A stretch of 64,000 bases of DNA, from NCBI GenBank assembly GCA_029782095.1, contig JAKOVL010000190.1, forward strand, positions 1-64,000, read 5' to 3'. Below are positions 2,333 through 41,155 of the stretch, in pieces. This DNA comes from Bacillota bacterium. GTDB lineage: Bacteria > Bacillota > Dethiobacteria > DTU022. The position numbers and the translations under genes are program-made. How positions within the stretch are numbered: the first letter of the stretch is position 1; every line of letters starts with the position of its first letter. Under the pieces are notes generated by a model, which saw only the letters and a program-made list of their open reading frames with translations, had not been told where the DNA came from and searched no databases.

Positions 2333-3775
2333 ATGATGTCGCTGACAAAAGCAGAAATTGTAGAGCAGCTAATCAAAATCTTAAGCGAAGACCAGGTCGT
2401 TACCGACGAGGAGGTCCTGAAAAGAAGCAGTGTAGACCGCTTCCGCCGCTTCGAGGAGATACACGGCGTCTTTACCGGACCCTTTCCCGCCGCCGTGGTT
2501 TACGTGGAGAGCGCCGCGGAAGCGGCGGAGGTGCTCAAGTTCGCCAATAAGCATGGCATCAACGTGGTCCCCCGGACCGGGCAGACGGCCACGGAGGGGG
2601 GGCTGGAAACGGCCGTGGAAAATTCCATCGTCCTGGACGGCTCCCGGATGAACAAGATCATCAACATTGACACCTACAACATGCAGGCCACCTGCCAGTG
2701 CGGCACCCCCCTGCAGCTGCTGGAGGATCGGCTGAGGGACCTCGGCTACACCACCGGCCACTCCCCCCAGTCGAAACCCATGGCTCACCTGGGCGGCCTG
2801 GTGGCCACCAGGAGCATCGGCCAATTTTCCACCCTTTACGGCGGCATTGAAGACATGGTGGTGGGCCTGGAGGCCGTTTTCCCGGACGGCCATATCGCCA
2901 GGATCAAGAATGTGCCGCGCCGGGCGGCGGGGCCTGACATCCGCCACGTGATCATCGGCAACGAGGGCGCCCTCTGCTTCATCACCGAGGTAACGGTAAA
3001 AATCTACAAGTATATGCCCGAGAACAACATCCTTTTTGGATACACCCTGGAGAGCATGAAAACGGGATTTGAAATACTGCGCGAGGTAATGGTCAACGGC
3101 TACCGCCCCTCCGTGACCAGGCTTTACGATCAAGAAGACGCCTTCTACCATTTTCCACATTTTTCCGAAGGCAAGTGCGTACTCATCTTCATGACGGAGG
3201 GGCCGAAGGCCATCTCCGAGGCCTCCGCCGCCGCCATCAGGGAGATCGTGGCCCGCTACCCCGAGTGCAAGGAAGTAGACAGCCGCTACATCGAGACGTG
3301 GTTTGAAAACCTGAACTGGGATGCCTCGGACGTGGCCCAGGAGCGGGCTGAAATCCTGGAAACAAAGAACATTGGCAATACTACCGAGATTTCAGCCGGC
3401 TGGGACAAGATCTACGACATCTACGAGGCCTGCGTGGAACGGATCCGCAACGAAGTCCCCGACATGACCCTGGTGGGCGGCCACGCCTCGCACTGCTATA
3501 TCAACGGAACCAATCTCTATTTCGTCCATTACTACAACGTGGTGGACTGCAAGCCCGAAGAGGAGATTACCAAGTACCACCTGCCCATAAAGAAGATCAT
3601 CGTGGAAGAGACGCTTAAGGCCGGGGGCTCCATGTGCCACCACCACGGGGTGGGCAAGTATCGCAGTCCCTGGATCAAGGAGGAGCACGGCTCCGCCTAC
3701 TATATCCTGGAAACGCTGAAGAAGTCTTTTGATCCCCGCGGCATCATGAACAAGGGAACCATTTTCCCGGGGTGA
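2333..3775 (+). CDS. FAD-binding oxidase/transferase (GlcD/alkyl-DHAP-synthase-like)
   Basis: PCMH-type FAD domain (VVPRTGQTATEGGLE), C-terminal HHHGVG and FDPRGIMNKG motifs. Confidence 0.9.
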   Translation: MMSLTKAEIVEQLIKILSEDQVVTDEEVLKRSSVDRFRRFEEIHGVFTGPFPAAVVYVESAAEAAEVLKFANKHGINVVPRTGQTATEGGLETAVENSIVLDGSRMNKIINIDTYNMQATCQCGTPLQLLEDRLRDLGYTTGHSPQSKPMAHLGGLVATRSIGQFSTLYGGIEDMVVGLEAVFPDGHIARIKNVPRRAAGPDIRHVIIGNEGALCFITEVTVKIYKYMPENNILFGYTLESMKTGFEILREVMVNGYRPSVTRLYDQEDAFYHFPHFSEGKCVLIFMTEGPKAISEASAAAIREIVARYPECKEVDSRYIETWFENLNWDASDVAQERAEILETKNIGNTTEISAGWDKIYDIYEACVERIRNEVPDMTLVGGHASHCYINGTNLYFVHYYNVVDCKPEEEITKYHLPIKKIIVEETLKAGGSMCHHHGVGKYRSPWIKEEHGSAYYILETLKKSFDPRGIMNKGTIFPG

Positions 3776-4578
3776 TGCCCATGCGTGTCCTGGTCTGCTT
3801 CAAGGTGGTGCCCGACCTGGATCAGATCCCCCCCGGCAGGTGGGAAATAGATAGCGCTTTAAGGGTGGAAACCGGCTTTGTCAAAACCATGCTCAACCCC
3901 TACGACGAGAGCGCCCTGGAGATGGCTCTGCGGCTTGCCGAAGGCGCCCCCTGCCCGGTTAAATTAACCGCCTTAACCGTGGGCGGCCGGGAAGTGGAGA
4001 GCTATCTGAAAACCCTTTACGCGCTCAAGTTTGACCGGGCCGTGCGCCTGGAGAGCGATGCCGACCTGCGCTTCTCGCCGGAGGGGGTGGCGGCAGCCAT
4101 CTGCGCCTTCGTCCGCCATAACCCCCAGGATCTGATCATCATGGGGCGGCAAAGCGGGGTCGGCGACAATGCCGCCACCCCCCTCATAGCCGCAGAGATG
4201 CTGGGGTGGCCCTGCATCAGCCAGGTCACCGAAATAAAGCTCCATGGGGAAGGCTGGCTGGAGGTGGGCAGCACGGTGGACGACGGCTTTTTGCGGCAGG
4301 CCGCCCGCCTTCCCCTTGTTGCCGCCGTAGGCAATGCGCCGCACGCCTACTTGAGGGTGCCCACGCTGAAAGATAGGCTTGCCTGCAGGGATAAACCGGT
4401 GGAAGTGCTCGAAGCGGCCATTGCCGCCGGCGAAAAGAAAGCCGCAGGCTGCTCCCTGACGGGCCTGGCGGTAATCAACCGCCGCAGGGCCGGGGTGAAG
4501 ATTGAGGGGGCCAGCCCGCAGGAGAAGGCCCGGAAGCTATACGACGAATACTTGAAGGGGTGGCTGGCGGAGCTATGA
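3772..4578 (+). CDS. Electron transfer flavoprotein beta subunit (EtfB/FixA family); true start probably 3781
   Basis: MRVLVCFKVVPD N-terminus, MLNPYDESALEMALRL, GRQSGVGDNAATPLIAAEMLGWP. Confidence 0.92.
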   Translation: MMPMRVLVCFKVVPDLDQIPPGRWEIDSALRVETGFVKTMLNPYDESALEMALRLAEGAPCPVKLTALTVGGREVESYLKTLYALKFDRAVRLESDADLRFSPEGVAAAICAFVRHNPQDLIIMGRQSGVGDNAATPLIAAEMLGWPCISQVTEIKLHGEGWLEVGSTVDDGFLRQAARLPLVAAVGNAPHAYLRVPTLKDRLACRDKPVEVLEAAIAAGEKKAAGCSLTGLAVINRRRAGVKIEGASPQEKARKLYDEYLKGWLAEL

Positions 4579-5549
4579 ACTATACGGTTGTTTTAAACGG
4601 CTGCTCGCGCACTGTGCAGAGCCAGGCCGAAGAGATGGCGGCCTTTATCGAGACCAACCTGGGCGCCGCGGCGCCGGGGCGATGCATCATTTTCTACAGC
4701 GCGCCGGAAAAGAAAGATGAGCTGGCCACCCTCTCGCCAGCAGAAACCCTGCTGCTGGTGAGGGTGCAGCGCTACCAGCCGGAAGTTTTCCTCTCTACCC
4801 TGGCCCGGCTGGCGCAGGAGGAGGCCGCCCCGATGTACCTCTTCCCCGGCGACTACAGCGGCAGCGAGCTGGCGGTGCGCCTCGCCTGCCGCCTGGGGGG
4901 CAGTTCCCTCACGGCGGTGCAGAAGCTGGAGCCGGCGCAGGAACCGCCGGCCTGCTACAAGACCGTCTACTCCGGCTACCTGCAGGCGCGGCTGACGCTG
5001 CGGCGGAAGCCATACTGCCTCTCCATCGCCCGGGGCGGCGCCGGGCAGAGCCGGCGCACCGCCAAGGTGCGGGAAACGGCGGAGCTCGACATGACCGGAG
5101 CGGCTGAAGCATCTTTCAGCCGGATGCTGGAATTTAAAGAAGCGGGCCGCGGCGGCCTGGAGGAGGCTTCCTTTGTCATGGCCGCAGGCCGGGGCGTCGA
5201 CAGCAAGGCGAAAATTGAGAAATTCAGGCAGGCCGCTGCAGAATTGGGCGCCGCTTTCGGGGTGAGCCGGCCGGTGGCCATGAACGCCTGGGCCCCGCTG
5301 AGCTCCCTCATCGGGGCCTCGGGAGCGATTACCCGGCCACGGCTCTGCATCGCCGCCGGAGTATCCGGCGCCGCCGCCTTTTACGCCGGCATTGAGAAAA
5401 GCGAGCATATCGTGGCCTTGAACACGGACGAGTTCGCACCCCTGGTGCAAGCGGCCGACGTGGCGGTAATTGATGACTACGCAGCGGTGCTGGAGGAGCT
5501 GCTGCGCTTAATCAGACAGGAGCGGGAGCTTAAGGCAAAGGAAGAATAA
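4575..5549 (+). CDS. Electron transfer flavoprotein alpha subunit-like (divergent FAD site)
   Basis: Overlaps etfB by ATGA; C-terminal SRPVAMNAWAPLSSLIGASGAITRPRLCIAAGVSGAAAFYAGIEKSEHIVALN resembles the EtfA FAD domain. Confidence 0.85.
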   Translation: MNYTVVLNGCSRTVQSQAEEMAAFIETNLGAAAPGRCIIFYSAPEKKDELATLSPAETLLLVRVQRYQPEVFLSTLARLAQEEAAPMYLFPGDYSGSELAVRLACRLGGSSLTAVQKLEPAQEPPACYKTVYSGYLQARLTLRRKPYCLSIARGGAGQSRRTAKVRETAELDMTGAAEASFSRMLEFKEAGRGGLEEASFVMAAGRGVDSKAKIEKFRQAAAELGAAFGVSRPVAMNAWAPLSSLIGASGAITRPRLCIAAGVSGAAAFYAGIEKSEHIVALNTDEFAPLVQAADVAVIDDYAAVLEELLRLIRQERELKAKEE

Positions 5550-5554
5550 AACTC

Positions 5555-7000
5555 ATGAAAGATAAAATCTACAACGTGGAGGAGAAGTTCCAGGATTACC
5601 TTTCCGATGAATCGAGGCTGCAGGGCCAGGCTGACGGCATCTTTTTCCCTGAAAGTGAGGCCGACATCCAAGAATTTGCCGCCTGGGCCTACGAGAGCAG
5701 GGCTGCCGCAACGATCCAGGGCGGAAGAACGGGCCTCGCCGGGGGCGCCGTGCCGGCGGGAGGCTGCCTGCTCAACCTCTCCCGGATGAGCCGCACGGGC
5801 GAGCTGGCCCGGGGCAGGGGCGGCGAATTTTACCTGGAGGTGGAGCCCGGCTTATCCCTGCTCCAATTGAGACAGGAACTTAAGCGGCTGAAAAGCGAAG
5901 TGGAGCTCTTTTGGCCCCCGGACCCCACTGAGACCGCGGCCTCAGTGGGAGGAATCGCCTCCTGCGGCGCCAGGGGTATCTGTGCCCCGCGCTATGGGAA
6001 TACGGGCCGGCATATTGCGAGAGCCCGGATCGTCCTCGCCGGCGGCCGGGTCATGGAGCTGCGCCGGGGCGAGCAGTTCATTTCTCTCGCCGGGAAAAAG
6101 ATTGACCTGCTGGATCTCTTTATCGGCGGCGAGGGCATCTTCGGCGTCCTCAGCAGGCTCACCCTGCAGCTGCAGCCCAGGCCGCGGCACACCTGGGGCT
6201 TTATGTTCTTCCTCGAGCAGAAGGAGGCGCTCTATGCCTTTGTCGAAAACCTGAAAAAGAACTGGCGCGAACTGATGCCGCTCGGCCTGGCGGCCGCCGA
6301 ATACATGGACCGCTCAACCCTGCAATTGATGGAAGAATATAAAGAGGCGGCGGAGAGCTTAAAAGCGGCGCCGCCCCTGGATCCCGGGGTTTTGGCGGCG
6401 GTCTACCTGGAAGCCCACTGCAGCAGGGAAGAGGCCGCCCTGGAAATTGCCGACAGGCTGGTGGATATGGCCGTGGAGTCGAGCTGCGACCCCGACCGGG
6501 CCTGGGCGGTGACCGGCGAAAACGACGTGGAAAAGATGAGAGACTTCCGCCATGCCGCGGCGACAGCGGTAAATTATCACCTGGCCAGGGCCAGGCTCGC
6601 AGAGCCGCGCCTGACGGGGCTGGAAGTTTACCTGGAAGCGGATTGTGAAGATTTTGCCGGCGTGGTGGAAAAATATAAAGCCGGCTGTGCCGGCGCGGGA
6701 CTGAAGGCGGCCATTTACGGCCATATCCTGGGAAACCGGCTCCGGGTCAACCTGCTGCCGGAAAGCTATGCCCAGTATGAGGAGGGACGGCGGCTCATTA
6801 AACGGTGGGCGCTTGAGTTGGCGGGACGCCGGGGCAAGGTGGACCGGCAGCACGGCATCGGTAAACTGAAAAGGGAGCTCTTCCTGCAGATGGCGCCCCG
6901 CGAATACCTGGAAGATTTGCAAAGGCTCAAGGAGCACTACGATCCTGCGGGGCTGTGGAACCGGGGCACCCTCCTGCCGCCTCCCTGTGAAAGCCGCTAG
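5555..7000 (+). CDS. FAD-binding oxidoreductase, GlcD-like (D-2-hydroxyacid dehydrogenase type)
   Basis: IQGGRTGLAGGAVP FAD motif, DRQHGIGKLKRELF and YDPAGLWNRGTLL C-terminal motifs. Confidence 0.88.
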   Translation: MKDKIYNVEEKFQDYLSDESRLQGQADGIFFPESEADIQEFAAWAYESRAAATIQGGRTGLAGGAVPAGGCLLNLSRMSRTGELARGRGGEFYLEVEPGLSLLQLRQELKRLKSEVELFWPPDPTETAASVGGIASCGARGICAPRYGNTGRHIARARIVLAGGRVMELRRGEQFISLAGKKIDLLDLFIGGEGIFGVLSRLTLQLQPRPRHTWGFMFFLEQKEALYAFVENLKKNWRELMPLGLAAAEYMDRSTLQLMEEYKEAAESLKAAPPLDPGVLAAVYLEAHCSREEAALEIADRLVDMAVESSCDPDRAWAVTGENDVEKMRDFRHAAATAVNYHLARARLAEPRLTGLEVYLEADCEDFAGVVEKYKAGCAGAGLKAAIYGHILGNRLRVNLLPESYAQYEEGRRLIKRWALELAGRRGKVDRQHGIGKLKRELFLQMAPREYLEDLQRLKEHYDPAGLWNRGTLLPPPCESR

Positions 7001-8016
7001 CGCAGCGTAAAGCCATATTTAAGGGGATCAGCCGCGTCGATGATGAGCTGGCCCATGCCGGTCAAGAAGGCTCTCCCCTTCACCTGGGGCAGAATGGCCG
7101 GAAAGTGGCCTACCTTGGTCTCCCCCATCACCGAGCCTTCAAAAATCGCCCCGGTAATGCTTTCATGGTAAAAAAGATCACCCCTGCCCAGCGCACCCCG
7201 TGCATAGAGGGCTGCCATGCGGGCGCAGGTTCCCGTCCCGCAGGGGGAGCGATCGACCATGGCATGCCCGAGGACAACCAGGCTTTTATGGGTATCGCCG
7301 GAAAACTGCGGCTCCTTAACAAAGAGGATATCTTCAACAAAATTGATATGGGGCTTTTCGGGATGGACGACGGAAAGATTCTGGTTGATCTCTTCCCGTA
7401 TGGCCAGCCCGCAGCGAATGAAGTCGGGGATAGATTCCTTGGAATGCTTCAACCCCAGCTGGTCCATCTCCACGATCACAAAAAAATTGCCGCCGAAAGC
7501 GAGATCCACTAAAATCTCGCCGCCGGGCAGATGAACCGGCACCTCACTCCGGTAAAGAAAGGAAGGCACTCCCTTCAGGGTAGCTTCGCCGGCCCTCCCA
7601 TTCTTTACCTCCACCTCAACTCTAACTAGGCCCGCGCCAGTTTCCAGGATCACGGCGGTGAGCGGCTCTTTCACCGGCACCAGGCCCAGTTCTACGGCAA
7701 TGGTGGCGATGGCCATGGCCCCATGCCCGCACATGTTGTTATAAAAAGCGCCGTCAATAAAGATGACGCCCAGATCCGCCTCGGGATGGCAGGGATCCAC
7801 AGCCACGGCGCCGTACATATCATCATGGCCCCGGGGCTCCAGCAAGGCGGCAGTGCGGACAAAATCATATTTTTTCATCATGTATTCGCGTTTTTCCAGC
7901 AGCGTCTTCCCTTTAAGCTGCGGGCCGCGCATAATGAGCCGCAAGGGCTCGCCGCCCACGTGGGCATCGACGTAGTTTAGAATATGCTTGCCCATTATCC
8001 CGCCTCCCGCGACCAT
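6997..8016 (-). CDS. Proline racemase-family protein
   Basis: DAHVGGEPLR, NMCGHGAMA and DRSPCGTGTCARMA; both catalytic Cys positions occupied. Confidence 0.92.
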   Translation of the reverse strand: MVAGGGIMGKHILNYVDAHVGGEPLRLIMRGPQLKGKTLLEKREYMMKKYDFVRTAALLEPRGHDDMYGAVAVDPCHPEADLGVIFIDGAFYNNMCGHGAMAIATIAVELGLVPVKEPLTAVILETGAGLVRVEVEVKNGRAGEATLKGVPSFLYRSEVPVHLPGGEILVDLAFGGNFFVIVEMDQLGLKHSKESIPDFIRCGLAIREEINQNLSVVHPEKPHINFVEDILFVKEPQFSGDTHKSLVVLGHAMVDRSPCGTGTCARMAALYARGALGRGDLFYHESITGAIFEGSVMGETKVGHFPAILPQVKGRAFLTGMGQLIIDAADPLKYGFTLR

Positions 8017-8040: not shown

Positions 8041-9252
8041 TTATTCCCTGCCGGCAGCTCCATAGTAGGCCCGGTAAAAAATGGAGAGCATCTGTGCTTC
8101 ATCGGGAACGCGGGGATTGGTGCAAAGATTGGCCTTCTCCTCCATTGATTCCCGGGCCAGCAGGGGCAGATCCTCTTCGGGGATGTTTAGCTCCTGCAGC
8201 GTCCGGGGCAGGCCCAGATCGCCGATCAGCCTCCGCACGGCCAGGGGCGCCGCCTCTGCGGCGGCAAAAAGATCCATCCCGGCAATATCGACGCCTAAAG
8301 CTGCGGCAATATCCCGGTAAAGCTCCGGGCAGGCCATCAAGTTAAATTCCATCACTGCCGGCAGCATTATGGCAGTGGCCAGGCCATGGCTCACCGCGAA
8401 GTGGGCGCCCAGGGGATGGCTGCAGGCATGCACCGCGCCGAGGCCGGCATAATCAAAGCAAAGCCCCCCGAACATGCTGGCCACCAGCATGTTGGACCGG
8501 GCCTCGAGATTTTGCGGCTGGGCCACCGCCTTGCGCAGCCATTGGCCAATCATGGCCGTCCCCTTCAACGCAAGGGCCTGGGCAAAGGGGTCCGTGCCGG
8601 TGGAGGTGTACGCTTCAATCACGTTGGTCAGCGCATCCATTCCCGTCTCCGCCGTAACCCTGGGCGGCAGTCCCAGAGTTAGCTCGGGATCGAGCAGGGC
8701 AAAGCGGGGCCAGAGCTGCGGCCCCTCCAGGACAACCTTCTTCTTCCTGGAAGGGTCGGAGATGACCGCGTAGGGCGAAACCTCGGCCCCTGTTCCGGCC
8801 GTAGTGGGGATGGCGATATAGGGGGGACAGCTTTTTTCGATCTTCCTCCCCCCCCGCCGGTAGTCAATGGCGCTGCCGCCATGGGCCGCCACTACCACGG
8901 CGGCCTTGACCGTATCGATGACGCTGCCGCCTCCCACGGCTACAAAGAAAGTGTCATCGCAATTCCCCCTGGCCAGGGCGGCAACGCCGTCGCAGACCTC
9001 ACCGCAGGGGTCCGGCTCCACCCCGGTAAAGAGGGTTGCCCGCAGGCCGGCTCCCTCTAAAGAGGCCATAATGGGCTCTAAAAGACCGGCCCGGGCAATC
9101 CCGGGGTCGCTGACAACTATGGCTTTCCTTCTCTTTAGCGACGCCGCCTTCTCGTGGACTCTCTGAGAGATGCCGCAGCCAAATTCCACCCAGGCGGGGT
9201 AGCTAAAGCCAAATTGCCTGGTGCTTAGAATCAAAGGACTCCACTCCAACAA
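8041..9252 (-). CDS. Iron-containing alcohol dehydrogenase
   Basis: FVAVGGGSVIDTVKA, IPTTAGTGAEVSPYAVI, GLGAVHACSHPLGAHFAVSHGLA motifs. Confidence 0.94.
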   Translation of the reverse strand: MLEWSPLILSTRQFGFSYPAWVEFGCGISQRVHEKAASLKRRKAIVVSDPGIARAGLLEPIMASLEGAGLRATLFTGVEPDPCGEVCDGVAALARGNCDDTFFVAVGGGSVIDTVKAAVVVAAHGGSAIDYRRGGRKIEKSCPPYIAIPTTAGTGAEVSPYAVISDPSRKKKVVLEGPQLWPRFALLDPELTLGLPPRVTAETGMDALTNVIEAYTSTGTDPFAQALALKGTAMIGQWLRKAVAQPQNLEARSNMLVASMFGGLCFDYAGLGAVHACSHPLGAHFAVSHGLATAIMLPAVMEFNLMACPELYRDIAAALGVDIAGMDLFAAAEAAPLAVRRLIGDLGLPRTLQELNIPEEDLPLLARESMEEKANLCTNPRVPDEAQMLSIFYRAYYGAAGRE

Positions 9253-9262
9253 TTCAGATCAA

Positions 9263-9928
9263 TCACTTAAGGCTTTCCATACCATATTTCCTCTGGACAA
9301 TCTTTTCCAGCCAGCCCAGCAAGCGGTCGAGCAAAACCGTGGTCACCGCCAGCAGAATGGTCCCCGCAACGAGCATGCCGTCGTTAAAGGTGCGCATGCC
9401 GACCAGAATGATGGTGCCCATGCCGGCTGCGCCGATAAAAACGGCGTAGGTGGCCACGGAAAAATTCATCACTATGGCCGTGCGTATGCCGGCAAAGATC
9501 ACCGGAAAGGCCAGGGGCAGCTCCACCCTGAAAAGGAGCTGGAGCCTATTGGCGCCCATGCCGATGGCCGCCTCTTTAACCGCTGGAGAGACATTCTCAA
9601 TACCCACACAGGCATTCCGGATTACCGGCAGAATACCATAAATGGTCAGAGCAATTAAGGCCGGCTTTAAGCCAATACCCATCAGCGGGATGAGAAAGCC
9701 AAAAAGCCCCAGTATGGGAATGGTGTAAAGAACGCCGATAAAGCCGAGTACAGGATCACGCAAAGACCGATGGCGTGAAATGAGAATACCGATGGGTATA
9801 CCAAGAACAATCACGATGCAACTGGCCAAGACTACCAGCTTAACGTGTGATCCGAGCATGGAGATCCAGAAATCGCTCTTGCTAACAATATAGTTCCATA
9901 CATTTGCCCACAGAAAGTTGCTCTTCAC
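9263..9928 (-). CDS. Betaine/choline-type ABC transporter permease (OpuCB/YehW-like)
   Basis: Hydrophobic; LPLAFPVIFAGIRTAIVMN EAA-like loop; adjacent to ATPase. Confidence 0.9.
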   Translation of the reverse strand: MKSNFLWANVWNYIVSKSDFWISMLGSHVKLVVLASCIVIVLGIPIGILISRHRSLRDPVLGFIGVLYTIPILGLFGFLIPLMGIGLKPALIALTIYGILPVIRNACVGIENVSPAVKEAAIGMGANRLQLLFRVELPLAFPVIFAGIRTAIVMNFSVATYAVFIGAAGMGTIILVGMRTFNDGMLVAGTILLAVTTVLLDRLLGWLEKIVQRKYGMESLK

Positions 9929-9946
9929 AAAACATTAATACCTCCC

Positions 9947-11041
9947 CTAGCCGGCTAAAAGGGATGCGCAGGATTGAAAAGAGACGATTCCCAAAAAGCA
10001 GCCTTCTTCGGTAACCACGGGCAGCCAGCCCCGGCTGCCCCAGAGCATCTCCTCGATGGCCTTTTTCAAGGAGTCGCCCGGGAGGCAGGAAGAAGATAGG
10101 GGTTGAACTTTCTCCATGTCAATTTTTTCGCGCCCTTTCATCTCTGCCAGCGAAATGTAGCCCAAACATTGCCGATGATCGTCCACCACAAAGGCGTATT
10201 CCCAGCCTTTGAAGGAGGAATCGGCGGGATCTACAACGGCTCCCTCCTTGACGACAGGAAGATCGCGGATTAAGGCCTGGGCTACAGGAATTGTATCGAG
10301 GGCGCTGAATACGGCCCCTTGACCGACAAAACTCCGGATAAACTCGTCCCTCTCCTTGACAATATCCATGGCCGTGCCGATGGTTACAAGCTTGCCCCCG
10401 CGCATGATGCCGATGCGGCTGCCCATCTTGAAAGCCTCTTGGATATCATGGGTGACAAAGACTATGGTTTTCTTGATTGTTTCCTGCAGGCGCAGCAGCT
10501 CATTCTGCAGCTGTTCCCTGGTTACCGGGTCCACTGCCCCAAAGGGTTCGTCCATCAACAATATCTCCGGATCTGCCGCCAGGGCGCGGGCTACGCCGAC
10601 GCGCTGCTGCTGGCCGCCGCTCAGTTCCCGGGGATAGCGGTCCAGGTACGAAACCGGCAGCCCCACTGTTTCAATGAGTTCCATGGCTCGCTCCCGCTGC
10701 ATCTTTTTGTCGCATTTTTTCAGCTGCAGGACAAAGGCAATGTTGTCCCGAATGGTCAGGTGCGGCAGTAAACCAATATATTGGATCACGTAACCGATGG
10801 AGCGACGGAGCTCGACCGTATCGAGCTCCGTCACATCCTTCCCTCGCACGAGTATGCGCCCTGAAGTATGGGGAACGAGCTGGTTAATCATTTTCAAAGT
10901 GGTCGTTTTACCGCATCCAGAAGGACCAATGAGGACAAAGATCTCCCCCTGGTTAACCTGGAAGCTAACCCCGTCTACCACTTTGTCTTCGCCATAGAAT
11001 TTGCTCACATTTTGGAGCTCTACTTCTATGCTGCCTGTCAT
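9947..11041 (-). CDS. Betaine-type ABC transporter ATP-binding protein with C-terminal CBS-like region (OpuCA/ProV-like)
   Basis: Walker A GPSGCGKTT, signature LSGGQQQRVGVARAL, Walker B ILLMDEPFGAVD. Confidence 0.94.
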   Translation of the reverse strand: MTGSIEVELQNVSKFYGEDKVVDGVSFQVNQGEIFVLIGPSGCGKTTTLKMINQLVPHTSGRILVRGKDVTELDTVELRRSIGYVIQYIGLLPHLTIRDNIAFVLQLKKCDKKMQRERAMELIETVGLPVSYLDRYPRELSGGQQQRVGVARALAADPEILLMDEPFGAVDPVTREQLQNELLRLQETIKKTIVFVTHDIQEAFKMGSRIGIMRGGKLVTIGTAMDIVKERDEFIRSFVGQGAVFSALDTIPVAQALIRDLPVVKEGAVVDPADSSFKGWEYAFVVDDHRQCLGYISLAEMKGREKIDMEKVQPLSSSCLPGDSLKKAIEEMLWGSRGWLPVVTEEGCFLGIVSFQSCASLLAG

Positions 11042-11060: not shown

Positions 11061-11978
11061 TTAGATAAGCCCCCGTGACTTCAGGAATTCTTCTGCCACA
11101 TCAGCGGGATCCTGGTTTTCCACTTCCACCTTGAAGTTCAAATCGATCATGGTCTCTTCGTCAATGGAATTGAACAGCGGCTTGAGAGCTTCTTCCACTT
11201 CGGGATGCTTCTCCAAGATCTCGGTGCGGATCACATACATGGCATCGTACGGCGGGAAGAAGCTCTTATCGTCTTCCAATACGACAAACTGGTATTCTTT
11301 GAGCCGGCCGTCCGTGGAGAAGCAGGTGGTCACATGGCCGTGCCCTTCGGCCAGGGCGTCGTAGAAGAAGGCGGTGTCCACAACTTTTTGCTGCATATCA
11401 ATGCCGTAAGTCTCCTGCAGTCCCAGGTAAACATCGGGCCGTTCAAAGGTGGTGGAGTCGCCGACGAAAATTAAATCATTGTGGCCGGCCAGGTCGGAAA
11501 GGGTTTTTATACCCAGTTCATCAGAGACCTCCTGGGGCATGGCAATGGCGAAGGTGTTCTGGAAGCCCAGGGGATCGAGGCAGGTGATGTTGAACTTCTC
11601 CTGGTAAGCCGCCTTTGTTTTCTCAAAGATCTCCTGGCGGTCTTGAATGACCTCTCCTTCGAGGACCACCATCCAGGCTGTACCCGTGTACTCGGGGTAG
11701 AGATCAATTTGTCCCTCCACCAGGGCCGGGTGCAGCATCTCTGTTGCGCCCATGCCGATCTTGCTGATATCTACTTCCAGATCGGTTTTCGCTTCGATTA
11801 ACAGTGCCGCCATGTGCGCAAGAGTTAAGCTCTCGGCAAACTGCTTGCTGGCAATGACCACCTTGCCCGCGGTCTCCTCCGATCCTCCCCCCCCACAGCC
11901 AACTGCTCCAAACATTGCTGCAACCAAGGCCACACAAAGCAACAAACAGGTCAACCTACGCTTCTGTAACACCGACAA
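11061..11978 (-). CDS. Betaine-type ABC transporter substrate-binding lipoprotein (OpuCC/OsmF-like)
   Basis: Lipobox ...FGAVGC, KVVIASKQFAESLTLAHMAALLIE, DLYPEYTGTAW motifs. Confidence 0.93.
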   Translation of the reverse strand: MSVLQKRRLTCLLLCVALVAAMFGAVGCGGGGSEETAGKVVIASKQFAESLTLAHMAALLIEAKTDLEVDISKIGMGATEMLHPALVEGQIDLYPEYTGTAWMVVLEGEVIQDRQEIFEKTKAAYQEKFNITCLDPLGFQNTFAIAMPQEVSDELGIKTLSDLAGHNDLIFVGDSTTFERPDVYLGLQETYGIDMQQKVVDTAFFYDALAEGHGHVTTCFSTDGRLKEYQFVVLEDDKSFFPPYDAMYVIRTEILEKHPEVEEALKPLFNSIDEETMIDLNFKVEVENQDPADVAEEFLKSRGLI

Positions 11979-12004: not shown

Positions 12005-12658
12005 TTACCCGCGAACCCCCATCTTTAAGCTGGCTTTATGCTCCAGGACGCCCAGGAGCTTATCCACAAGGACGGCCAGCGCGGAAACGGGAATGGTTCC
12101 CGCCAGGATCATGCGGTTATCCATCATGGAAATACCGGTAAAGATCAGGTTGCCCAGCCCTCCCGCGGCAACTAGGGCGCCCATGGTCGTAATCCCCACG
12201 GTGAGGACGGCAACGGTGCGAATGCCGGCCATGATCACGGGAAAAGCCATGGGAAGCTCAACGCGGAAGAGAAGCTGGCTTGACGTAGCGCCCATCCCTA
12301 AGGCTGCCTCCTTGGCCGCCGGATCTACGCCGAGAATTCCGGCGCAGGTATTCCTTAAAACGGGCAGCCATGAATAGATCGTTAGAGCCACGATCGTCGG
12401 CAGCCAGCCCAATCCAAGGAAGGGGAGCAGGAAGCCCAGTATGGCCAGCGAAGGGATGGTATAGAGCATTCCCGCGATATCGATGACGTAATTGCTGATT
12501 TTCGGGCGCCTGGAAATAAATACGCCCAGCGGTACCGCAGTAAGGGTGCCTGCCAGCACGCCGGCCAGTGAGATCCAGGTATGCTGCAGGGTAAGCTCGG
12601 CCACCTGCCCCCTTATCTCCCAAAAATATGCGAAGAAAGATACTATGCTTTCAATCAA
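12005..12658 (-). CDS. Betaine-type ABC transporter permease (second permease)
   Basis: Paralogous to 9263..9928; LPMAFPVIMAGIRTVAVLTVGITTMGALVAAGGLG. Confidence 0.9.
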   Translation of the reverse strand: MIESIVSFFAYFWEIRGQVAELTLQHTWISLAGVLAGTLTAVPLGVFISRRPKISNYVIDIAGMLYTIPSLAILGFLLPFLGLGWLPTIVALTIYSWLPVLRNTCAGILGVDPAAKEAALGMGATSSQLLFRVELPMAFPVIMAGIRTVAVLTVGITTMGALVAAGGLGNLIFTGISMMDNRMILAGTIPVSALAVLVDKLLGVLEHKASLKMGVRG

Positions 12659-12754
12659 CGCCCCTTTTAAGCCTCCTTTTTATGCTTGCTCCAAGCGCAT
12701 GGCCGGCTCTGCTGCAGGGCCCGGCGAGGAGTTTTCTCCGGACCCGGGCCTCAT

Positions 12755-13606
12755 TTACTTTTTGAACTCCTTAAACATCTTTTCAAACTCTTCCATGGGC
12801 TCCACCACATGGTAAGCGTGTTCATCAGAGGGGAAGATGCCTTCTTTCACTTCGTGAACATAGGTCTTGATGGCGTTTATTTCTATCTCGGCCACGTTGG
12901 CATACTGCTTTACAAATTTGGGCGTAAAAGCCTGGAACATCCCCAGCATATCGCCGCAGATGAGCAGCTGCCCATCTGCCGGCCCCGCCCCGATGCCGTA
13001 CACCGGTATTTCCAGGAGATCGCAGATAAATGCCGTGACCTCCGGGGGGACAGCTTCCACAAGCAGCGCAAAAGCGCCCGCCTCCTGCACCGCCAGGGCG
13101 TCCTTGATTAAAGCGCGGGCGTTCTTCACATCACGCCCCTGGGCTTTAAAACCGCCCAGCTGGCCCGAACTCTGGGGGGTTAACCCAATATGGCCCATGA
13201 CCGGTATGCCGGCATCAACGATGGCCCTGATCCGGGAGGTTACCCGCACGCCGCCCTCCAGCTTGATCGAATCCACTGCCGCTTCCTTGATCAGGCGGCC
13301 CGCATTAAATACGGCCTCTTCATCAGAAACCTGGTAAGACATAAAGGGCATGTCCCCCACAACCCAGGTGTTTGGCGCCCCGCGGCGCACCGCCTTGCAG
13401 TGGGAAAGGCATTCTTCCATGGTTACCGGGTTCGTTGATTTATAGCCAAGCACAACCATGCCCAGGGAATCGCCCACCAGGATCATGTCTACACCGGCCT
13501 GCTCGGCAAACGAGGCCATGGGATAATCGTAGGCGGTGATCCAGGCCACCTGCTGCTTCTCTTTTTTCATCCTGATGAAATCTAGAATCGTTTTTTTCCT
13601 GGCCAT
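12755..13606 (-). CDS. Ketopantoate hydroxymethyltransferase (PanB) family protein
   Basis: VGDSLGMVVLGYKSTNPVTMEE, GDMPFMSYQ, KLEGG, GHIGLTPQS, YGIGAG motifs; start at 13606 chosen from AAGGAGGC RBS. Confidence 0.92.
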   Translation of the reverse strand: MARKKTILDFIRMKKEKQQVAWITAYDYPMASFAEQAGVDMILVGDSLGMVVLGYKSTNPVTMEECLSHCKAVRRGAPNTWVVGDMPFMSYQVSDEEAVFNAGRLIKEAAVDSIKLEGGVRVTSRIRAIVDAGIPVMGHIGLTPQSSGQLGGFKAQGRDVKNARALIKDALAVQEAGAFALLVEAVPPEVTAFICDLLEIPVYGIGAGPADGQLLICGDMLGMFQAFTPKFVKQYANVAEIEINAIKTYVHEVKEGIFPSDEHAYHVVEPMEEFEKMFKEFKK

Positions 13607-13635
13607 TAAGCTGCCTCCTTCTTTCTGTTGATTGC

Positions 13636-15027
13636 TCAATACAGGTGCTGCGCCAAAATATTCTCTTGCTCAGGAGTAAGCGGGGGCGGTTCATAATCTT
13701 GAAGCCTCCCGTTCAATATCTCCTGAGCCTGCTGTTCCAATGTCCGGGAACCGCCCTGCTCCCAGCTGGAGTAGCTCTCGCGCGAAAGCAGCGGCGGTAT
13801 AGAGAGCTCGCTCCGGTAATGCAAAGCGGTATGCTCTTCATCCAGGTACATGCCGCCCGGGCCAACTCTCTCGATAACCTCTACAGCCAGCTTCTGCTCA
13901 TCCACGTCAAAGCCGGCGACAAATCTTTCCGCCACAGCCACGGTAGCCTCGTCGATAATAAACTTTTCGAAGCTAACCGTGTTAAAAGAATCAATAATCC
14001 CACAGGAGTGCAGGATGAAATCTGCGCCGGAAATCATCGTGCTCAGCATCAGCATCATGGATTCTAAACCGGCCTGCATATCCGGCAGCTTTGCATCCGT
14101 TAACGTGCCGCCGGTGCGGCAGGGCAGCCCGTAGTATTTGGCCAGCGCTGCAGTGGCCATAGCCATGAGCGCAGCTTCCGGTGAACCTATGGCCGGCGCA
14201 GCGTAGCGCATATCACAGGAGACAGAGGTGCTGCCGTATATAACCGGCAGTCCGGGCTTGCAAAGCTGGCTGAACACAATCCCGGCCAGCTGTTGGGCAT
14301 TATCCACAACCACGGTCCCGGCCAGCGTTGCGGGGCTGCTGAACCCCGGCTGGGAGCATGAGGCAAACAAAAGGGGCTGGCCGGCATGGGCATACTCCAT
14401 AATGCGCTCAATCATCCCCCGGTCATAGGTTAACGGTGAGATGGGGCTGATAAAGCCCAGCAACCGGTTTTCTGACAGGCCTCCGTAAAAATCGCGCACC
14501 AGCTTAAAGCACTCCCTGGTTTCTCCCTCCCCCACGTTCATCCCCGCCAGGGGCTTCGTGGAATATTTAAGGGCCGCCGCCACCTGGAACAATCTCCGCC
14601 TGCTCCCGGCAATATCCTGGGGTTCAACGACGATATAATTGGCCACCCCCAGCACGGGGCTGTCCTGGGTCAGCTTCATTAAATCGATAAAGTCTTGCCT
14701 TGAAGCCGGCCTTTTCTGGGAACCCCTTTTCACAAATACCGGGCCGGAAGCTGGCGCATAGACGGGCCGCCCGCCGCCGACAACAACATGGTCCCGGCTC
14801 TCGCGGCCATAAAGCGTAAAGCTCTTCGGTGTGCTTTCCAGGGCTCGCTCCAGGAGCTTCTGATCAATAAAGACCTTATCGCCTTCGATTTTAGCGCCGC
14901 TCTTTTTGAATATTTCCAGCGCCTGCCCGTGAGCAAACCTCACTCCGGTCCTGGAGAGCACTTTTAGCGTCGCTTTATGAAGATTCTGAATCTCTTTTGG
15001 GGACAGGCAGCTGCCCGAGACCCTCAT
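13636..15027 (-). CDS. Trimethylamine methyltransferase (MttB) family protein, non-pyrrolysine type
   Basis: VLSRTGVRF N-terminus, GGTLTDAKLPDMQAGLESMMLMLSTMISGADFILHSCG, ERVGPGGMYLDEEHT; no in-frame stop across the family. Confidence 0.9.
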   Translation of the reverse strand: MRVSGSCLSPKEIQNLHKATLKVLSRTGVRFAHGQALEIFKKSGAKIEGDKVFIDQKLLERALESTPKSFTLYGRESRDHVVVGGGRPVYAPASGPVFVKRGSQKRPASRQDFIDLMKLTQDSPVLGVANYIVVEPQDIAGSRRRLFQVAAALKYSTKPLAGMNVGEGETRECFKLVRDFYGGLSENRLLGFISPISPLTYDRGMIERIMEYAHAGQPLLFASCSQPGFSSPATLAGTVVVDNAQQLAGIVFSQLCKPGLPVIYGSTSVSCDMRYAAPAIGSPEAALMAMATAALAKYYGLPCRTGGTLTDAKLPDMQAGLESMMLMLSTMISGADFILHSCGIIDSFNTVSFEKFIIDEATVAVAERFVAGFDVDEQKLAVEVIERVGPGGMYLDEEHTALHYRSELSIPPLLSRESYSSWEQGGSRTLEQQAQEILNGRLQDYEPPPLTPEQENILAQHLY

Positions 15028-15045: not shown

Positions 15046-15837
15046 TTAAACATGGCCGTAGTAATCTCGATGGGCAATAACCGAATAGGCATAATCCAAA
15101 AGGGTGCCCCAGCTAAACACGGGCAGGTCCGTCTCCCGCTGTATGGCCCGGGCAAAAGGCTGCATCCCCGTGCATTCCAGCAAGAGCGCACCAATCGTCG
15201 GATGCTTTTCAATAAACCTCTTGCAGCAGGAGATCATCTGCTTTTCAGCCTTATCGTAATAGGCTTCCGGCTTCTCGGGCCTCACATGGGGATTCCAGAG
15301 GTTGTCAAATTCGCTGACGCCGTACTCATCCTGGGCCCCGGCGATGACATAGTTGCTGTCGGGATCAATGCCCACGTTGATGAGATGCTCCCTGGATAAA
15401 AATTGTTTCTGGACGCAGACGATGCCCACGCTTTTCTGCGGCCCGATGACCTGCTGAATAAACGGCACCTGCAGCAGGCTGGACATGAATACGGGCACAT
15501 CGACAACAGCCCGCACATCCTGCTGGAAAAAGGCAAAATATCCACATTCAGCGGCAATGGCCCGGCAGCCATACCTCTCCAATCTTTTTGCTGCGGCAAT
15601 GACCGCCTCCCGGCATTGCGCCGGATTATTGTCATAGACCAGCGTCTTATTGGTTACGCCCTCCGCTATTTCATACTGTATGGGATAGGGATAGGCGCTC
15701 GGGTTTCGCACGTCCCCCGGAAATCCCGGATAGACATCATCAAGCAGGATTATCCCCAGGCCCATGCCGTAGCAGACATGATTCTTGCGCGCTTTGATAT
15801 GATTTATTCCCGGATCACGGCTTTGCCAAAAGATCAT
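15046..15837 (-). CDS. Aspartate/glutamate racemase-like protein
   Basis: AAECGYFAFFQ and LLLECTGMQPFARAIQ carry the paired Cys expected in the Asp/Glu/hydantoin racemase superfamily. Confidence 0.75.
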   Translation of the reverse strand: MIFWQSRDPGINHIKARKNHVCYGMGLGIILLDDVYPGFPGDVRNPSAYPYPIQYEIAEGVTNKTLVYDNNPAQCREAVIAAAKRLERYGCRAIAAECGYFAFFQQDVRAVVDVPVFMSSLLQVPFIQQVIGPQKSVGIVCVQKQFLSREHLINVGIDPDSNYVIAGAQDEYGVSEFDNLWNPHVRPEKPEAYYDKAEKQMISCCKRFIEKHPTIGALLLECTGMQPFARAIQRETDLPVFSWGTLLDYAYSVIAHRDYYGHV

Positions 15838-17369: not shown

Positions 17370-18587
17370 TTACTTCCTTTCCCCGAAGCGCAGATAATTG
17401 TTCAACTGCTCTTTATCCATACCGCCAATGCCCAGGTAGTCAAGAGAGTACCCCGTGGAGTAAAAATCCCTCTGCAAGATGGCCGAGGCAATGTTGATCA
17501 TGGAGTCGATCACCGGCGTTTTTACCCCAAAGACTTTCCCCAGTTGATGGTACACGTTGCAGCCAACCGGGATATCCTCGGTGATATACCGATTCTCTAC
17601 GGTGAAGGGGCCGGTGCCGTACTGGATATAGTCATGCTGGTCAAAGGGTATTTTGTAATCTTTGCCCATGTACTCCTGGCCCAGGATGCTTTCCCTGGAG
17701 AAGAAGTCTTCTTCGTCATATTCCTGAACACCCACGCCGATCGCCTTGGCCACGGCGCAGACCTCCTGGTAGAAGGCATACTGGACCCGGGCAATGGAAG
17801 GACAGTAGGCATGAGAATAGATGCTGAATTCATACTTGTCTTTCCCGTAGATCACACCCCAGTTTTCCATGGTGCCGAGGCCGAGAATGGTGCCCGGACA
17901 GTGCAGAACGGGGTTCACATTGCTAAAGCCGATATCGAGGACCGTATCGCCCGCCACAGGCCCGTCGCCATTGGTGACCGCGTCCATGGAAGGGAGATAG
18001 CGGGAGCTTTCGATAAAGGCAGGGGTATCGCAATCGGGCATGGCGGCGCCGCGCAGGGTAATGGCCCGATAATAGACCCTGATTTGAGGCAAAATCACTC
18101 CACCCTTGGTCACCACCCGGCTGCCGTAGGTGGAGCTGGACCATCCACCCACGATAACATCTTTATCGCAGCCCGCTTCCCGCATCATTTTGCGCAGCAA
18201 GAGGGAGCCGTAATTGTCGGGGAAAATGTGGATTACCTGCCCATCTTCCAGGGCGGGAATTAATTTTTCAAAGAAAGGCCTGTGCCCGAGGGCAGGCGTA
18301 GCCACGACAATAATCCCGGCGCCTTTTACTGCTTCGGCTACATCTTCGGTTACCAATTCCATTACTGCAGTTCCGCTGCGTTCAAAGCCATATAAGTTTA
18401 GCTGATCTCCAAAAAATTTGATGCCTGATTCTTTGACTCCAAAAAGTGTTTTTTCCGCGAAAGGCGGCAGGTCGCAGAGGCGCACCCTGGCGCCGCCCAA
18501 GGCACAATCGCCGGCAATAGCTTTGGCTACGGCCCCTCCCCCGAGCACGGCAATGGGTTTTTCCTTCAAGTAGTCCAACTTTTTCAT
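17370..18587 (-). CDS. NAD/NADP octopine/nopaline dehydrogenase-family protein
   Basis: IAVLGGGAVAKAIAGDCALGGARVRLCD Rossmann N-terminus; C-terminal HQLGKVFGVKTPVIDSMINIASAI. Confidence 0.85.
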   Translation of the reverse strand: MKKLDYLKEKPIAVLGGGAVAKAIAGDCALGGARVRLCDLPPFAEKTLFGVKESGIKFFGDQLNLYGFERSGTAVMELVTEDVAEAVKGAGIIVVATPALGHRPFFEKLIPALEDGQVIHIFPDNYGSLLLRKMMREAGCDKDVIVGGWSSSTYGSRVVTKGGVILPQIRVYYRAITLRGAAMPDCDTPAFIESSRYLPSMDAVTNGDGPVAGDTVLDIGFSNVNPVLHCPGTILGLGTMENWGVIYGKDKYEFSIYSHAYCPSIARVQYAFYQEVCAVAKAIGVGVQEYDEEDFFSRESILGQEYMGKDYKIPFDQHDYIQYGTGPFTVENRYITEDIPVGCNVYHQLGKVFGVKTPVIDSMINIASAILQRDFYSTGYSLDYLGIGGMDKEQLNNYLRFGERK

Positions 18588-18667
18588 GGCAAAACTCCTC
18601 CTGATCGTTGCATTTGTGGCTCTAGTTATGGCTGCGGCTACTTCTTTTTATTTCAGCTACATCTACT

Positions 18668-18683
18668 TGCAATATCTGTGCCA
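18668..18683 (-). promoter_or_regulatory. Sigma-54 promoter candidate TGGCACAGATATTGCA directed at the 18587->6997 operon
   Basis: Reverse complement of tgcaatatctgtgcca; GG and GC separated by exactly 10 nt; about 80 nt upstream of the operon's first start codon; divergent EBP gene adjacent. Confidence 0.85.
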
Positions 18684-18880: not shown

Positions 18881-18977
18881 GCAATTTATTTTGCATGCAA
18901 TATTTTTTGCAGAGTCCGGCAAGGGCAGGATTTATTAGGGTTGCGGCGAATTGATCATAAAACGCAAAAATATTTGC
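18881..18977. promoter_or_regulatory. Candidate enhancer cluster: three GCAA-[AT]6-TTGC dyads (18881-18894, 18897-18910, 18964-18977)
   Basis: GCAATTTATTTTGC, GCAATATTTTTTGC, GCAAAAATATTTGC; about 200-290 bp from the -24 element and directly upstream of the EBP gene. Confidence 0.65.
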
Positions 18978-40887: not shown

Positions 40888-41155
40888 CCCAAAAATAAAA
40901 ATCCCTCCTCCGAGGGACGAAAATAAATTCCGCGGTACCACCCACGTTAGCTTAGTTAAAGCTCTGCTCCATTTCGATAACGGCATTTCCCGCCCGCGCC
41001 TACCCAGAAACGGCGCGCCATTTCCTTCAGCGCGGAAGCTCCGGAGAGAACTTCAACAGGTGCGGCCGGATAGGGCTTGCAGTCTACGGCCCTATCTCCC
41101 TTGGACGGCCCCGGTCCTGCCTACTTTGCTCCTTCACTGCATTTCCATATTTAAC
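40888..41155 (-). ncRNA. T-box leader of pheST (with terminator/antiterminator)
   Basis: GGTGGTACCGCGG T-box (40930-40942, rc), terminator TCCCTCGGAGGAGGGA + T-run (40889-40917), stem I region with AGTA element and a UUC compatible with a Phe specifier. Confidence 0.93.

Follow-up and report, generated by a model that had tools for sequence, protein, structure and literature searches.

The gene of the sigma-54 activator (bEBP) NorR in Escherichia coli is divergent from its target, norVW. In that system, activation and the assembly of the activator oligomer both require three enhancer sites that precede the sigma-54 promoter (PMC2941729). In Clostridiales, Nie et al. (2019, PMC6615313) described 39 bEBP regulon groups, in which the enhancers (UAS) mostly precede the sigma-54 promoter by 100-250 bp and a single operon, usually a neighbour, is controlled by 65% of the activators. 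PrdR, the activator of proline reductase in Clostridia, has sites of the form TGT-N10-12-ACA (PMC6615313). As for methylamine-type catabolism, the betaine-induced cluster of Sporomusa sphaeroides KIAC has sigma-54 promoters of the TGGCA-N6-TTGC type, based on dRNA-seq, and sigma-54 activators (PMC12456013), and MttB (COG5598) was predicted to be sigma-54-regulated in Clostridia (PMC12316311).

The locus described here resembles each of these systems in part. We consider it highly probable that a site upstream of an 11-gene catabolic operon is its sigma-54 promoter, switched by a divergent PAS-AAA+-Fis activator through palindromes (Table 1). The nearest functional analogue is NorR/norVW, with its three enhancer sites and divergent bEBP gene. 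However, NorR senses NO via a GAF domain and has a different palindrome, whereas the protein predicted here has a PAS domain and the palindromes are GCAA-N6-TTGC, two of the three forming a tight tandem. Orthology with NorR was rejected, the activator scoring 299 bits with the NorR model for a cut-off of 476. Its best NCBIfam match is PrdR (NF041552, 405.7 bits, residues 9-473), and PrdR systems similarly place an amino-acid-type catabolic operon under sigma-54 control. Nevertheless, the cut-off of that model is 795 bits and its first ~120 residues are lacking in the activator, which is thus not PrdR. PrdR-type UAS were also discarded, as the intergenic region carries GCAA-N6-TTGC instead of TGT-N10-12-ACA.

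With the Clostridiales groups (PMC6615313), the locus shares a Fis-type bEBP, multiple UAS and the usual arrangement of one adjacent sigma-54 operon. MttB, opine dehydrogenase or PanB are targets in none of the 39 groups listed in the text of that study. For 15 groups, the text mentions 'distinct' UAS motifs but does not show them, and one of these might match GCAA-N6-TTGC. The Sporomusa cluster is similar by its SigL control and by its betaine and trimethylamine methyltransferases. As described, however, it spans 58 kb and includes a glycine/sarcosine/betaine reductase, and the opine dehydrogenase/PanB set is not part of that description (PMC12456013). Opine dehydrogenase, ketopantoate enzymes and betaine are not mentioned in the main text of PMC12316311, nor are opine, hydroxymethyltransferase or racemase genes in the main text of the Formimonas DCMF proteomics paper. 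Our literature search found no paper on octopine dehydrogenase with MttB or sigma-54. As sigma-54 control was predicted for MttB in Clostridia and reported for the Sporomusa betaine cluster, while the listed targets of the 39 groups differ and PrdR does not fit, we regard the activator and its UAS as a new group within a known type of sigma-54 switch.

Table 1. Features of the operon, of the divergent activator gene and of the region between them.
Feature	Position	Strand	Basis
Proline racemase family protein, last gene of predicted operon	6997-8016	-	PF05544
Iron-containing alcohol dehydrogenase family protein	8041-9252	-	PF00465/PF25137
Betaine/choline-type ABC permease 2	9263-9928	-	PF00528
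ProV-like ABC ATPase with CBS domain	9947-11041	-	PF00005, TIGR01186
OpuAC substrate-binding protein	11061-11978	-	PF04069
Betaine/choline-type ABC permease 1	12005-12658	-	PF00528
PanB-like hydroxymethyltransferase	12755-13639	-	PF02548, TIGR00222
MttB-family methyltransferase 2	13636-15027	-	PF06253
Asp/Glu racemase family protein	15046-15837	-	PF01177, PRK07475
MttB-family methyltransferase 1, open without TAG codon	15874-17298	-	PF06253
Opine (octopine/nopaline) dehydrogenase family (ODH), first operon gene	17370-18587	-	PF02317
Shine-Dalgarno AGGAGGAG of first gene	18595-18602	-	Sequence
Predicted operon transcription start	18657	-	Sigma-54 promoter geometry, 12 nt downstream of -12 C
Predicted sigma-54 -24/-12 promoter of operon, TGGCAC-AGATA-TTGC-A	18668-18683	-	Sequence and conservation across lineages
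UAS 1 (candidate), GCAA-N6-TTGC, promoter-proximal half of tandem pair	18881-18894		Palindrome, recurrence
UAS 2 (candidate), GCAA-N6-TTGC, distal half of tandem pair, 16 bp register	18897-18910		Palindrome, recurrence
Predicted SigH-type promoter of activator gene, AGGA-N17-GAAT	18927-18951	+	Conserved motif; SigH in genome
UAS 3, GCAA-N6-TTGC, candidate autoregulatory operator just downstream of predicted activator start	18964-18977		Palindrome, spacing
Sigma-54 activator (bEBP), PAS - AAA+ with GAFTGA - Fis-type HTH, 477 aa	18997-20430	+	Domain and motif evidence

The -24/-12 site and its conservation

On the minus strand, 18668-18683 is TGGCACAGATATTGCA. This sequence agrees with TGGCAC-N5-TTGC at each of the ten specified positions, with 10 nt from GG to GC, and the 3' end of the motif is 80 nt from the ATG (18587) of the opine dehydrogenase gene; the motif and a distance of about 80 nt had both been proposed in the initial annotation. 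The C of the -12 GC is at 18669, and transcription is therefore predicted to start around 18657. Neither a structured 5' leader nor a riboswitch was found in the operon leader. Elsewhere in the 64-kb window, i.e. the whole stretch of DNA that was analysed, a T-box leader is present on the minus strand at 40910-41146 (Rfam RF00230, 105.7 bits).

A motif of this size might match by chance, in which case an ordinary sigma-A promoter would drive the operon. Over the genome, exact TGGCAC-N5-TTGC occurs 7 times and a backward control pattern 6 times, and thus the motif alone is weak evidence at that scale. Nor is the window rich in sigma-54-like sites, as 18668-18683 is the only one with at most one mismatch, versus a mean of 6.8 in shuffled sequences. 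For a single intergenic strand of 409 nt, the expected number of exact matches is about 0.0004 (409 x 4^-10). Given that the genome-wide motif statistics are not supportive, conservation was used as the test.

Orthologous loci were drawn from named genomes and from phylum genomes, and their gene order was mapped. Orthologs were defined by an ODH identity of at least 65%, and lineages as clusters collapsed at 90% ODH identity. A site with at least 9 of the 10 bases is present between -130 and -35 of the ODH start codon in 30 of the 42 orthologous loci, for which the background rate of these loci would give 0.18. After collapsing, it is found at -135 to -35 in 15 of 23 lineages (~0.1 expected), and in none of the 12 distant paralogue lineages with an ODH identity below 65%. 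The lineages covered include cultured Eubacterium, Maledivibacter and Ca. Formimonas, with a weaker form of the site in Desulfoluna. Four ortholog clusters (L035, L036, L065 and L070), in some of which the compared DNA is short, have no site of at least 9/10.

The site also follows changes in gene order: in several lineages it sits before whichever gene comes first, between activator and operon. Thus, Desulfosporosinus (L018/L020) has a 10/10 site 54 nt before PanB, Desulfosarcina a 9/10 site between activator and PanB, the latter probably being the first gene. In L031 and L011, a 9/10 site is found between the activator gene and the first operon gene. In a further locus (L014), an 8/10 site precedes MttB as the first gene. 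A position conserved to this extent in independent lineages, the dedicated enhancer motif that adjoins the site and the fact that no sigma-70-like site was found upstream of the ODH gene all argue against a chance match, which we regard as very improbable.

A check for rpoN had been suggested at the outset. The genome, a draft assembly with 6% contamination in which rpoN and sigH are on contigs other than that of the operon, contains one complete rpoN gene encoding the AID, core-binding and DNA-binding domains and the RpoN box. Altogether, the predicted promoter combines a -24/-12 match, rpoN in the genome, candidate enhancers with a neighbouring activator gene, and conservation. The genome also encodes seven strong sigma-54-activator genes. 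Among the other exact sites, one (G000:C48:31772-31786, L002) is just upstream of a Glu/Leu/Phe/Val dehydrogenase gene and beside another activator gene, and a second (G000:C101:13820-13834, L003) is at a formate/nitrite transporter gene, with an activator gene ~5 kb away.

The activator, the adjacent palindromes and a predicted SigH-type promoter

The divergent sigma-54 activator gene postulated initially proved genuine. Its product combines a Fis-type HTH with a sigma-54 interaction AAA+ domain, in which GAFTGA, the loop that contacts sigma-54, the Walker A and B motifs and GTLFLDEI are present. Orthologues with at least 59% identity are present in 7 of 399 phylum genomes, every one adjoining ODH, and the next matches do not exceed 49%.

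Three near-identical GCAA-N6-TTGC palindromes are found in the intergenic region between activator and operon. The tandem pair, with N6 or N7, recurs at that location in most divergent loci, and in lineages with three sites the third palindrome is usually 67-71 bp from the pair. The exact 30-bp tandem pattern occurs once in the genome, the next best match being 3 mismatches off. It has four matches in the 399 phylum genomes, each just upstream of ODH, and in that set the tandem motif is found only where the activator orthologue occurs. As the sigma-54 site and matching palindromes recur before the same gene cluster in many anaerobic bacteria, it is almost certainly the regulator next to the operon that switches it on.

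When loci were aligned by their palindromes, a conserved AGGA-N17/18-GAAT motif appeared on the activator side. This form of SigH promoter has been reported for an acetogen (PMC12456013), and the genome encodes SigH (TIGR02859, 372 bits for a cut-off of 294.8). The 17-18 nt between AGGA and GAAT and the presence of sigH fit a SigH (Spo0H-type) promoter, and we describe this predicted, conserved promoter of the activator gene as a new element. Of the 21 distinct evaluable loci, 18 have the relaxed motif AGG[AT]-N17/18-GAA[TA] before the activator gene, for an expectation below 0.1 per locus. Several of these loci are close relatives, so that they represent fewer independent lineages, and the statistics are post hoc, as the pattern was noticed while reading the aligned regions. 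The motif is missing in L014, L016 and L051. The tandem pair is upstream of the SigH-type -35, and the third palindrome is just downstream of the expected start. As the palindromes bracket the SigH-type promoter, they suggest autoregulation, and the arrangement as a whole suggests a cascade from SigH to the activator and then to sigma-54.

This bracketing of the predicted SigH promoter by three sites might also mean that the palindromes are purely autoregulatory, or operators of another regulator, with the activator acting on the operon promoter from solution or from sites elsewhere. The pair is indeed nearer the activator gene than the sigma-54 promoter, ~200 bp away. However, the distance from the pair to the predicted promoter, ~200-230 bp here and ~70-170 bp in other lineages, is typical for UAS, and in the phylum genomes the tandem motif comes only with this activator orthologue. 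Furthermore, one locus (L067) has its activator gene beyond ODH and in convergent orientation, and yet the sigma-54 site and one palindrome remain upstream of the operon. We therefore consider such roles quite improbable, and the palindromes are best read as candidate enhancers of the operon promoter.

The same code may be common to a wider activator family serving MttB operons, since near another MttB gene Eubacterium callanderi has a second activator, of 42% identity, with the same tandem palindrome (L027:5454-5485) and a 9/10 sigma-54 site (5608).

Gene content of the predicted operon and probable extent of the transcript

The predicted operon comprises 11 minus-strand genes, from 18587 to 6997, four of which encode an OpuB/ProU-type transporter. 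Its intergenic gaps are all at most 96 nt, and no minus-strand terminator-like sites were found in them. Together with the conserved gene order, the short and terminator-free gaps suggest that all 11 genes are on one transcript. The initial annotation had the promoter driving the whole operon: sigma-54 control was upheld, and a single transcript for all genes is the likely, sequence-based extension of it.

The largest gap, 96 nt (12659-12754), separates enzyme and transporter genes and contains a G+C-rich hairpin (GGCCCGG/CCGGGCC). The sigma-54 promoter might accordingly drive only the enzyme half, from ODH to PanB, while the half with the transporter, dehydrogenase and racemase would have its own promoter or be set apart by processing or attenuation in this gap. 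A weak 9/12 sigma-70-like site at 12654-12625 could be such a promoter, but the number of sigma-70-like sites in the region is that expected by chance. As for the hairpin, it lacks a T-run and is not conserved, its stability does not exceed that of shuffled sequences (z -0.5), and an internal terminator or attenuator was thus rejected. The order PanB-then-transporter is also retained in four other loci (L009, L017, L022 and L058). A split operon is therefore unlikely in our view, and we favour a single transcript.

As for the pathway, Pyl-dependent MttB (trimethylamine methyltransferase) was rejected, as both MttB genes are devoid of in-frame amber codons and score 329 and 338 bits with TIGR02369, for a cut-off of 525. 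No gene for a cognate corrinoid protein was found in the operon or on the window contig; there are ten B12-binding_2 matches genome-wide. Judged by protein family, the type of transporter and the MttB proteins suggest a quaternary or N-methylated amine as the substrate, and the opine dehydrogenase and racemases an amino-acid-like skeleton. The PanB-like gene stays near the opine dehydrogenase gene in most lineages, which suggests a step releasing or adding C1 on an alpha-keto acid, rather than pantothenate synthesis. On the plus strand, neighbouring genes at 2333-5549 encode a GlcD-type FAD-oxidase and the two ETF subunits; they may constitute a dehydrogenase module of the electron-bifurcating or the lactate/glycolate type.

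A proposed switch for the operon

The evidence strongly supports the prediction that the operon depends on sigma-54 and is controlled by the divergent activator. We infer the other steps, namely that the activator binds the palindromes with looping of the DNA, regulates its own gene and responds to a signal, that SigH heads the cascade, and that there is a single transcript. In the proposed mechanism, sigma-54 (RpoN/SigL) RNA polymerase would wait as a closed complex at the -24/-12 elements (18668-18683), while SigH RNA polymerase would make the activator from the promoter between the tandem pair and the third palindrome. The PAS domain would receive a signal, probably the substrate of the pathway or an intermediate. 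The activator would then assemble on the tandem palindromes ~200 bp upstream and on the third palindrome, and loop to the promoter, where ATP hydrolysis via the GAFTGA loops would open the closed complex. Bound activator would probably limit its own synthesis.

An operon that is activator-dependent and inducible had been proposed initially. The first part is supported by the conserved site, the dedicated tandem motif, GAFTGA and rpoN; inducibility by the substrate is what the mechanism would presumably entail.

The analysis extends a single motif to a whole regulatory unit that comprises a promoter, three candidate enhancers, an activator and a likely SigH input. Bacillota have conserved this unit, and looser versions of it are found in sulfate reducers. 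It is tempting to speculate, although we do so tentatively, that it represents a hitherto undescribed bEBP group with its own enhancer code, the tandem GCAA-N6/7-TTGC and a third operator. A two-step cascade from SigH to the activator to sigma-54, self-restrained by operators around the activator's own SigH promoter, might then tie the use of N-methylated or opine-like substrates, with C1 chemistry via MttB and the PanB-like enzyme, to the transition phase. Since no other operon in the genome carries the tandem site, the PAS domain would give direct access to the substrate of the MttB/opine-dehydrogenase/PanB pathway, which is widespread.
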